Source: Micromonospora sp. WMMD882 (lineage in GTDB: Bacteria; Actinomycetota; Actinomycetes; Mycobacteriales; Micromonosporaceae). From it: a stretch of DNA of 64,000 nt. The notes below the pieces were generated by a model. The model saw only the letters and a list, made by a program, of their open reading frames with translations. It ran no database searches and was not told the origin of the DNA. The position numbers and the translations under genes are program-made. Shown here one piece after another: positions 37,106 through 40,838 of the stretch (position 1 is its first letter; each line of letters opens with the position of its first letter). The stretch covers positions 5,394,001 to 5,458,000 of the forward strand of contig NZ_CP114903.1 of the NCBI RefSeq assembly GCF_027497255.1. The letters are read 5' to 3'.

Positions 37106-37494
37106 GCGCGGAAGCGTCCGTGACCGCGGGAGCTTCCGTGACCGGGGGAGCGTCCGTGACCGGGGGAGCGTCCGTGACCGGGGGAGCGTCCGTGACCGGG
37201 GGAGCGTCCGTGAGCGGGGAACGGCAACGGTTCGTGGCGCATCTGCCGGTGGTCGCCGCCGATCTGGCTGCCGCCCTGCGATTCGCCCGCTCGGTCGCTC
37301 AGGCGGTGAGCTTCCTCGCCGACGTGGATCGGGCCGAGGCCACCGTGTCGTACGAGGACGAGCAGGGCGTACGGCACCGGGTCTACTGCGACCGTCCGCT
37401 CGACGGCGGCCGACGCTGCCCACGACCCGCCCGCCACCTGGGCGCCTGCGCGCCCCACCCATCCGATCCCGCCATCCAGCGTCCGTCCCGCTGA
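37102..37494 (+). CDS. Small protein with variable repeat start region, partner of DivIVA-like gene
   Basis: The frame from ATG 37102 (ATGA overlap) encodes 130 residues. The first 36 are a six-residue repeat (SVTGGA) made by an 18-bp DNA repeat. The rest contains VAHLPVVAADLAAALRFARS and RVYCDRPLDGGRRCPRPARH, a Cys-containing tail. Every repeat unit holds GGGGGAG six to seven bases before a GTG, so translation could begin at any of six GTG codons (37120, 37138, 37156, 37174, 37192, 37210). The conserved protein may start at 37210. I do not recognise a family. Confidence 0.7.
   Translation: MSAEASVTAGASVTGGASVTGGASVTGGASVTGGASVSGERQRFVAHLPVVAADLAAALRFARSVAQAVSFLADVDRAEATVSYEDEQGVRHRVYCDRPLDGGRRCPRPARHLGACAPHPSDPAIQRPSR
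37120..37209 (+). repeat. 18-bp tandem repeat with RBS and GTG in each unit
   Basis: Five units of GTGACCGGGGGAGCGTCC (the first one degenerate) lie at the beginning of the small gene. Each contains a Shine-Dalgarno-like GGGGGAG and is followed by GTG. Confidence 0.85.
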
Positions 37495-38975: not shown

Positions 38976-39719
38976 ATGCTCGCCACCCGCGGTCTGACCT
39001 GGCGGATCGGTGAGGTCGCCATCGTCGACGACGTGGCATTCGACCTGTCGCCGGGGGAGTTCCTCGGCGTGATCGGGCCGAACGGCGCCGGCAAGACCTC
39101 GCTGTTCAACCTGATCACCGGCCTGCGTCGGCCCACCGCCGGCACGGTCCTGCTGGACGGCCGGGACGTCAGCGCCCTGCCGCCGCACCGGCGGGCCCGC
39201 CTCGGGCTGGGCCGTACCTTCCAGGCGTCGTCGGTCTTCGGCTCGCTCAGCGTGCGGGAGAACGTGCGGCTCGCCGTCCAGGCGTACCGCGGGGGTTCGA
39301 TGAGGCTGTGGCGGCGGGCGGCGGCCGACCGGGAGGTGGTCGCCGCCGCCGACGCGGCGCTCGACCGGGTCGGCCTCGCCCACCGGGGTACGGCGCTCGC
39401 CGGCACCCTCGCGCACGGCGAGAAACGCAAGCTGGAGATCGCCCTGCTGCTGGCCGGGGAACCCCGGGTGATGCTGCTGGACGAGCCGATGGCCGGGGTC
39501 AGCGCCGAGGACGTGCCCGAGCTGGTCGGGGTGATCAGGTCGTTGACCGGGGACAGCGGTCGGGCGGTGCTGATGGTGGAACACCACATGGACGTGATCC
39601 TGGAGCTGGCCGACCGGATCGCCGTGATGCACCACGGCGCGCTGCTGGCCTGCGACACCCCGGAGACGGTGATGGCCAACCCGACCGTGCAAGAGGCCTA
39701 CCTGGGAGAGCAACTGTGA
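38976..39719 (+). CDS. livG: LivG-type ABC transporter ATP-binding protein
   Basis: This 247-residue ATPase has Walker A GVIGPNGAGKTSLFNLITGL, a signature region LAHGEKRKLEIALLLAGEP (LSGGQ replaced by LAHGE, typical of LivG) and Walker B VMLLDEPMAGV. It starts eight bases after the binding-protein stop behind GGCGGAGC. It energises the LivH-LivM permease along with LivF. Its stop codon TGA overlaps the first GTG of the 61-bp repeat array. Confidence 0.92.
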   Translation: MLATRGLTWRIGEVAIVDDVAFDLSPGEFLGVIGPNGAGKTSLFNLITGLRRPTAGTVLLDGRDVSALPPHRRARLGLGRTFQASSVFGSLSVRENVRLAVQAYRGGSMRLWRRAAADREVVAAADAALDRVGLAHRGTALAGTLAHGEKRKLEIALLLAGEPRVMLLDEPMAGVSAEDVPELVGVIRSLTGDSGRAVLMVEHHMDVILELADRIAVMHHGALLACDTPETVMANPTVQEAYLGEQL

Positions 39720-40006
39720 GCGCGAGGAGTGAGCCGGGTTTGCGAGCCCCGCAGTCGCGAGCGAGAGGTGGGGCTTGTGAGCGCGAGGAGTGAGCCGGGT
39801 TTGCGAGCCCCGCAGTCGCGAGCGAGAGGTGGGGCTTGTGAGCGCGAGGAGTGAGCCGGGTTTGCGAGCCCCGCAGTCGCGAGCGAGAGGTGGGGCTTGT
39901 GAGCGCGAGGAGTGAGCCGGGTTTGCGAGCCCCGCAGTCGCGAGCGAGAGGTGGGGCTTGTGAGCGCGAGGAGTGAGCCGGGTTTGCGAGCCCCGCAGTC
40001 GCGAAC
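39716..40006 (+). repeat. 61-bp tandem repeat at livG-livF junction (about 4.8 copies)
   Basis: Units begin at 39716, 39777, 39838, 39899 and 39960. The first four are essentially identical over 61 bases; the fifth matches for about 45 bases and then enters livF. Each unit starts GTGAGCGCGAGGAGTGAGCC and ends GAGAGGTGGGGCTT, so each carries a ribosome binding site just before the next GTG. As 61 is not divisible by three, the frame changes each unit. A GTG in one of the first four units opens a 25-codon frame that stops at a TGA in the following unit (the fourth copy's frame continues into the diverged fifth copy). Only the last GTG is in frame with livF. Confidence 0.95.
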
Positions 40007-40838
40007 GGAAGGTGACGCTCCGACAGCCGTCCTCACCGTCGAGGATCTGTCGGTGCGGATCGCCGGGCTGCACATCCTCCAGGGGGTGTCGTTCGAGGTC
40101 GCGCCGACCGGGGTGACCGTGCTGCTGGGCCGCAACGGGGTCGGCAAGACCACCACGTTGCGCGCGGTCGTCGGCCTCACCCCGGCCGGCGGGGAGGTGA
40201 CCGGTCGGGTCCGGATGGGCGGGCGGAGCCTGCTCGACCGGCCCACCCACCGGCTGATCCGGGACGGGCTCGGCTACGTGCCGGAGGACCGCTGCGTGTT
40301 CGCCGGGCTCACCGTCGCGGAGAACCTTCGGCTCGCCGAACGGCGCGGCGCCTCTCCCGCGTACGAGCGGGTGTTCTCGCTCTTTCCGGAGCTGGAGCGG
40401 CGGGGACGCCAGCGGGCCGGCTCGCTCTCCGGCGGTCAGCAGCAGATGCTGGCGATCGGCCGGGTGCTGCTCAACGACAACCGGCTGCTCCTGGTGGACG
40501 AGCCGACGAAGGGGCTCGCCCCGAAGGTGGTGACCGAGGTGGCCGAGGTGCTGGAACGGGTCGCCGAGACGGTGCCGGTGCTGCTCGTCGAGCAGAACCT
40601 CGCCGTGGTACGCCGGCTGGCCGACTCGGCGGTGGTGCTCGCCGCCGGTCGGGTCGCCTGGACCGGCGACGCCCGGGACCTGCTCGCCGAGGCGGAGCTG
40701 ACCCGCTCCCTGCTCGGCGTCGGCTCGGCGGAGGCCCCCCACGGCGACGGCCATGGCCACGGCCACGGCCACGGCCACGGCCACGGTACGCGGACGGCGG
40801 CGCACGCTCCGGCCGCGCGGAAGGACGGGCAACCATGA
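39960..40838 (+). CDS. livF: LivF-type ABC transporter ATP-binding protein with His-Gly tail
   Basis: This protein of about 292 residues begins at GTG 39960, the last start of the 61-bp array, behind GAGAGGTGGGG. The first 25 residues come from the repeat (VSARSEPGLRAPQSRTEGD) and are not part of the ATPase. LTVEDLSVRIAGLHILQGVS, LLGRNGVGKTTTLRAVVG (Walker A), SLSGGQQQMLAIGRVLL (signature) and LLLVDEPTKGLAPK (Walker B) follow. The C-terminus has GHGHGHGHGHGHG coded by GGCCAC hexamers, unusual for LivF. The next gene overlaps by four bases. It is the second ATPase of the transporter. Confidence 0.9.
   Translation: MSARSEPGLRAPQSRTEGDAPTAVLTVEDLSVRIAGLHILQGVSFEVAPTGVTVLLGRNGVGKTTTLRAVVGLTPAGGEVTGRVRMGGRSLLDRPTHRLIRDGLGYVPEDRCVFAGLTVAENLRLAERRGASPAYERVFSLFPELERRGRQRAGSLSGGQQQMLAIGRVLLNDNRLLLVDEPTKGLAPKVVTEVAEVLERVAETVPVLLVEQNLAVVRRLADSAVVLAAGRVAWTGDARDLLAEAELTRSLLGVGSAEAPHGDGHGHGHGHGHGHGTRTAAHAPAARKDGQP

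Follow-up and report, generated by a model that had tools for sequence, protein, structure and literature searches.

A miniature mobile repeat at stop/start codon overlaps in Micromonosporaceae, with a five-copy array at a livG-livF junction

The window analysed here, a stretch of 64,000 nucleotides from Micromonospora sp. WMMD882 (GCF_027497255.1, contig NZ_CP114903.1, positions 5,394,001 to 5,458,000), holds the parts of a branched-chain amino-acid transporter, with Pfam matches for a binding protein, two ABC ATPases and two permeases. At the livG-livF junction of this cluster lies a tandem array, which TRF places at 39715-40004 with a period of 61, 4.8 copies and 100% matches. A preceding sequence-only reading had described such a 61-bp array, and mapping of the unit starts confirms it: five copies follow each other at 61-bp spacing, four of them identical and the fifth continuing into livF, and each begins with GTGA (39716, 39777, 39838, 39899 and 39960). 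The first GTGA contains the livG stop codon, TGA 39717-39719, just as that reading had stated. The features of the junction are as follows.

38976..39719, plus strand: livG, branched-chain amino-acid ABC ATPase, the upstream gene (open reading frame; Pfam ABC_tran and BCA_ABC_TP_C)
39716..39776, plus strand: element copy 1 (48-nt core 39716-39763, 13-nt spacer 39764-39776)
39777..39837, plus strand: element copy 2 (TRF and family model)
39838..39898, plus strand: element copy 3 (TRF and family model)
39899..39959, plus strand: element copy 4 (TRF and family model)
39960..40019, plus strand: element copy 5, terminal (core 39960-40007, a different spacer; GTG 39960 in the livF frame)
39716..39793, plus strand: putative bridging small ORF 1, 25 codons (GTG overlaps the livG stop, TGA overlaps GTG 39790; presumed translated)
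39790..39915, plus strand: putative bridging small ORF 2, 41 codons (TGA overlaps GTG 39912; presumed translated)
39912..40838, plus strand: livF as reached via the overlap relay, 308 codons (open reading frame; Pfam ABC_tran; 292 codons from GTG 39960)
40020..40022, plus strand: CCG in the livF frame, presumed from comparison to be the relict of an ancestral start (place of the start codon in relatives)
39716..39763 in copy 1 and correspondingly in every copy, plus strand: core hairpin, pairs 1-47, 2-46, 5-43, 6-42, 7-41, 8-39, 11-35, 12-34, 14-32 and 15-31 (covariation)

A 19-mer and a 22-mer of the unit each occur five times in the window with up to 3 mismatches and are absent outside the array, against shuffled-sequence means of 0.09 and 0.04, respectively. 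Three details of the sequence-only reading need amendment. The terminal copy does differ from the others, yet it is not a partial unit, as its 48-nt core is complete with one substitution and only its 3' spacer is different. The GTG of the last unit, 39960, is indeed the sole one continuous with livF, but the GTG of copy 2, 183 nt upstream, has the same phase, with a TGA intervening. The proposed 25-codon peptide does end just past the next GTG, at TGA 39791, but the overlapping GTG 39790, part of a second GTGA that offers a re-start point inside the 61-bp units, had gone unmentioned. The spacer of copy 1 (39764-39776) contains a purine-rich stretch that may serve as a Shine-Dalgarno sequence. 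Two further repeats lie nearby. A six-base repeat at 40739-40786 encodes a histidine-glycine tail (HGHGHG...) near the LivF C-terminus, which is different or missing in relatives among the matches listed, and an 18-bp tandem repeat (37113-37219, 5.9 copies, 95% matches by TRF) lies upstream of the binding-protein gene and contains no match to the element patterns.

Is the unit confined to this junction? The suggestion that it belongs to a genome-wide repeat family proved right: a whole-genome search with R1, a sequence-only model of the element, yields 29 units at 14 sites at E<=1e-4, eight of these sites being tandem with different units, where the best 150 of 8737 first-look candidates were scored and weak copies were possibly missed. 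Searching the genome with an exact pattern whose middle is left free gives 13 copies, against none for the reversed control. In the nuo (NADH dehydrogenase) region (G000:C1:4059016-4064109), four units are seen at three sites, after the NuoD, NuoF and NuoG matches. Element matches are present in 121/121 Micromonospora genomes, the source genome included, and in 70 of 150 sampled Micromonosporaceae genomes, representing 23 of 44 genera. An order-level sample of 298 genomes gave 45 with matches, all of them Micromonosporaceae; R1 matched none of the 244 sampled genomes of the order's other families (strict filters, 17 candidates scored per genome), a figure that assumes that the 233 genomes beyond the listing follow its kinship order. 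Among the open-licence papers listed, covered by titles and the beginnings of abstracts, none describes the repeat, which is weak evidence of novelty.

As for possible vehicles, a search for the Y1 transposase (PF01797) gave 0 matches in the source genome and matches in 5 of 14 control genomes, and the candidate of a resident RAYT/Y1 transposase was rejected. Phage carriers were found neither in IMG/VR with the exact 19-nt pattern nor among 50,697 phage records. One of 72,556 plasmid records matches, at two places, namely the Micromonospora terminaliae plasmid pLB1 (NZ_CP045310.1), a possible vehicle for spread between strains. The pLB1 copy that was read (L302:1501-1559) lies between acyltransferase and glycerol-3-phosphate dehydrogenase genes, with an L of 59, L being the distance that separates the first GTG of the last unit from the start of the downstream gene.

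The placement of the element was analysed at 153 distinct sites in 146 loci, drawn from 301 loci (nhmmer, E<=1e-4; matches less than 360 nt from a locus end dropped and identical ones merged); sites were found by consensus similarity among the best-listed matches only, and the sample leans to consensus-like copies. Gene frames were called by composition. The downstream gene lies on the element's strand at 150/153 sites and the upstream gene at 148/153, as judged by the second of two frame callers, which puts 5/153 upstream and 3/153 downstream genes on the opposite strand, several with small score margins; the first had put 3/67 upstream genes there. In 112 of 148 cases the upstream gene stops at the TGA of element positions 2-4; in 17 of the other 36 it reads through frame 1 and stops at the distal end of the element (offset 54-66), and in 10 the stop lies 2-8 bases before it. 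The first unit opens with NTGA at 139/153 sites, and at 113/132 a stop codon overlaps the start of the downstream gene. With NTGA usually present at both ends, the upstream gene therefore keeps a stop and the downstream gene a start. The Micromonospora unit is a miniature mobile repeat of Micromonosporaceae, inserted in sense orientation at NTGA stop/start overlaps.

Frame 1 of the element is free of stops in 256 of 257 cores, whereas stops interrupt frame 2 in 17 cores and frame 3 in 22. L equals 59 at 32 sites, 60 at 28 and 62 at 34, with 61 at none. Where a start lies within 46-72 (132 sites), L mod 3 is 2 in 84, 0 in 46 and 1 in 2, and the frame of the downstream gene gives the same classes (2/0/1) as 92/57/4 over all 153 sites. 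Sites of related species are non-independent, which grouping into 77 downstream-gene clusters corrects in part; by cluster the classes are 46/27/4 (binomial p=2.6e-9). The class 1 exceptions are L288, L018 (where a further degenerate copy went uncounted), L015 (degenerate) and L012, in which the bridge is intact once its 8-nt overlap is allowed. Insert length is thereby shown to be phased: frame 1 terminates at the start codon of the following gene, the arrangement that termination-reinitiation requires, or else continues without a shift into that gene. A 13-nt spacer is found at 0/113 sites with a 48-nt core versus 13/14 with cores of 43, 44 or 46 nt (5 sites skipped and 21 without a start; the 13 fall in few gene clusters). 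Because core and spacer lengths compensate in this way, it is the frame, rather than the spacer, that appears to be conserved.

A strict walk, which begins in the upstream gene and restarts only at starts overlapping the last stop (NTGA or TGATG-like), ends in the downstream frame at 140/153 sites, breaks at 9 and reaches a wrong frame at 4; it succeeds for most members in 66/77 clusters. Thirteen of the 14 sites of the source genome were walked: 11 pass, L012 holds when its 8-nt overlap is counted, and L024 is broken. Spacing of class 1 is avoided within tandem arrays as well, in 63/68, and the five arrays at the disfavoured 61 bp include that at livG-livF. The livG-livF walk nevertheless succeeds (GTG 39716 to TGA 39791, GTG 39790 to TGA 39913, GTG 39912 into livF), thanks to a second GTGA at core positions 14-17, which is present in 234 of 257 cores. 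The earlier idea that ribosomes could step through the array gains indirect support from the phase-selected insert length, and it is from this selection that we infer translation of the element. In silico, arrays of 1, 3, 5 or 7 copies lead the relay to a start no later than the GTG of the last copy and thus to full-length LivF; in arrays of 2, 4, 6 or 8 the final start is a GTG that lies within livF, 153 nt beyond the point where the last unit begins, and all eight of these arrays score the livF frame, the even-numbered ones by starting inside the gene. Parity was rejected as a general rule, since L202 and L237, two of the five 61-bp arrays, fail the walk, with L001, L159 and L284 passing it. 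It is doubtful that the five-copy array is itself a parity-dependent ribosome relay, in which gaining or losing one 61-bp copy would break the coupling of LivF to LivG and alter the ATPase stoichiometry; if it were, the mobile repeat would act as a slippage-prone switch for a gene without its own start codon.

Comparison with relatives adds what the sequence-only reading did not contain, namely that the element comes and goes at stop/start overlaps and that the livF start has apparently been lost to it. Of 52 livG-livF loci compared, 18 are filled and 34 are empty; the empty ones include two other genera, and the filled loci L150 and L171 entered via the element search. Removal of identical rows leaves 47, of which 17 are filled, with at least 12 state changes on a quick tree in which 11 of 44 inner branches are strongly supported and on which gain, loss and recombination between strains are indistinguishable. 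Filled loci are about 57-60 bp longer than their empty orthologues and have NTGA repeated at both ends, and sister loci with and without the element occur (e.g. L039 and L137). In the 17 distinct filled loci the start lies at 59 or 60 in 13 and at 66 in one, with none nearby in three, and never at 61. Copy number at this junction, which the sequence-only reading had suggested might vary between strains, is 0, 1, 2 or 5 depending on the species (one genome each): one in most filled relatives, two in L150 and five in WMMD882. Overall, 68/153 sites are tandem, and among arrays with at least three units, roughly half have pre-terminal units that are identical to one another, which suggests local duplication after insertion.

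Two side observations concern neighbouring junctions and fusions. At livG-livF of L171, livF is preceded by a shortened second copy joined to it in frame, apparently via a shared GAGCCGGT-like stretch, and about seven element codons now begin LivF. The livF-livH junction is also filled in L031, L033, L037, L038, L118, L121, L124, L125, L127, L129, L137 and L150; there, livF reads through frame 1 of the element and ends at the terminal TGA, so LivF gains a C-terminal extension.

What has become of the livF start itself? At the place where WMMD882 has CCG (40020), a start codon is present in almost all of the relatives compared, so that the ancestral start is apparently gone, to judge from sequence comparison. 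Since the gene's own start would have decayed, LivF should start inside the array, either at GTG 39960 or, if the relay operates, at GTG 39912. Starts within 46-72 are missing at 21 sites, 11 of which (9 clusters) have the downstream gene in element frame 1, two of them with broken walks; the remaining 10 are of frame class 2 (8) or 1 (2), several of these frame calls being uncertain. Three of the 11 are livG-livF junctions (L001, L150 and L120), and in L120 the element carries several substitutions and is still open as an N-terminal extension.

The core hairpin is shown to be conserved by compensatory changes in aligned cores. Ten pairs were tested in 65 distinct cores from 257 units: 96.2% of cells are paired, a figure favoured by the derivation of the structure from part of the tested sequences, and changes on both sides with pairing kept number 25 versus a shuffled mean of 3.8, many of those at pairs 1-47 and 2-46 coming from one group of orthologous sites. 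Covariation is 0.203 versus 0.125 in shuffled and at most 0.071 in slid alignments, and RNAalifold returns the same structure.

What allows such a repeat to persist between genes? The best reading is that two conserved properties, an open frame of phase-selected length and a covarying hairpin, explain it, and the element is very probably a selfish repeat of MIRU-like build that is tolerated in operons through ribosome traversal. Ribosomes finishing the upstream gene would re-initiate in the element, traverse it and pass to the downstream gene, and because this hand-on would make insertion nearly harmless, the repeat could accumulate. At livG-livF, one copy may have inserted, after which a second variant would have arrived or arisen and been amplified to four identical units; the start of livF could then have decayed to CCG, leaving the array to supply the start of LivF. 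The hairpin could instead be the functional part, acting in mRNA stability or processing between livG and livF or as a REP-like protein-binding site, with the open frame incidental. REP elements have such roles in other bacteria, and 6 of the 10 hairpin pairs show compensatory changes; however, this explanation leaves the avoidance of lengths of class 1 unaccounted for, the folding of the window's own unit is only moderately better than that of shuffles (z -2.2) and that of the terminal copy no better (z +0.24), and Rfam gives zero matches over 39500-40200 at E<=0.1. We therefore regard it as not very probable.

That the avoided length class stems from the chemistry of insertion, instead of selection on translation, is improbable. 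In its favour, subfamilies and orthologous sites share some inherited lengths, yet lengths range from 53 to 72 in two phases at 130/132 sites with core and spacer compensating, none of the 17 distinct filled livG-livF loci is at 61, and a different-looking repeat of Dactylosporangium avoids the same class at 12 of 12 sites. An array acting as a regulator, its copy number setting the LivF:LivG ratio as the sequence-only reading had envisaged, through relay efficiency or parity, is unlikely, even though odd numbers, such as the five copies of the window, relay to full-length LivF in silico, copy number varies between species, and in M. tuberculosis the fpg mRNA level went with the length of the upstream repeat (PMC2734929). 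The repeat also occurs at unrelated operons, so a livF-specific role is unneeded; moreover, other 61-bp arrays ignore parity, with L202 (2 copies) and L237 (4 copies; upstream frame call doubtful) failing and L159 (4 copies) succeeding, and the terminal copy comes with a start and a Shine-Dalgarno-like stretch of its own. The identity of four copies across 61 bp might raise the thought of an assembly artefact, which is scarcely credible in a genome that is a single 6.37-Mb contig and in a family with tandem copies at 8/14 sites of that genome, with different units, and at 68/153 overall.

The Dactylosporangium repeat was seen at the livF-livH junction of Dactylosporangium sp. AC04546 (L044:2711-2800), where about 86 bp lie between two ATGA. 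That genome has 27 matches (best 40 of 58 candidates scored), 12 of which were read (loci L303-L314), two after hand correction of a start one base late; the repeat was told apart from the first by look. Like the first, it is placed at stop/start overlaps. Both neighbours lie on its strand in 12/12, and L takes the value 83 or 86 at 10 sites and 84 at the other 2, class 1 never occurring. Its outer hairpin arm seems to change along with the bases after NTGA.

Together, these observations indicate that the MIRU lifestyle, that of an operon-tolerated mobile repeat read through by translation, extends beyond mycobacteria. Phase selection on insert length may serve as a genomic test for translation of a repeat without ribosome profiling, and livF would be an example of a mobile repeat taking over the start codon of a gene, which matters for how gene starts are annotated in Micromonospora, a genus known for its antibiotics, and the tandem sites offer candidate VNTR markers.

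How does the element compare with known repeats? REP/BIME sequences are short imperfect palindromes, extragenic, present in many copies and often in tandem, and associated with RAYT proteins, which are Y1 transposases. The covarying hairpin is likewise an imperfect palindrome; in contrast, the source genome is without a Y1 transposase, and the element overlaps stop and start codons and keeps one frame open. MITEs are small, code for no transposase and leave a short target duplication, and the element is similarly small and non-transposase-coding, with an NTGA target duplication seen between filled and empty orthologues, but it is strict in both orientation and target, the NTGA at the stop/start overlap. 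Mycobacterial interspersed repetitive units (MIRUs) are the repeats of Supply et al. (1997). MIRUs are 40-100 bp long and occupy 41 locations, of which 12 are polymorphic (PMC2734929); their insertion sites are start codons, and an ORF inside the repeat is coupled at -4 nt to the gene that follows (PMC12548453). Our element is alike in size and dispersal (units of about 60 bp, 29 of them spread over 14 sites), in the architecture of start-codon insertion with an internal ORF (upstream TGA at positions 2-4 in 112/148, L mod 3 = 2 in 84/132) and in variable copy number at some sites, which in Micromonospora is a variation between species. Besides the -4 coupling class, however, it has an in-frame class with L mod 3 = 0 (46/132), and it belongs to another lineage, R1 matching 0/244 genomes of the order's other families. 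Because the likeness is one of architecture and the range differs, we do not file the element as a MIRU. Further properties observed in the Micromonospora element are a hairpin that covaries, a length under phase selection and the apparent takeover of a downstream start.
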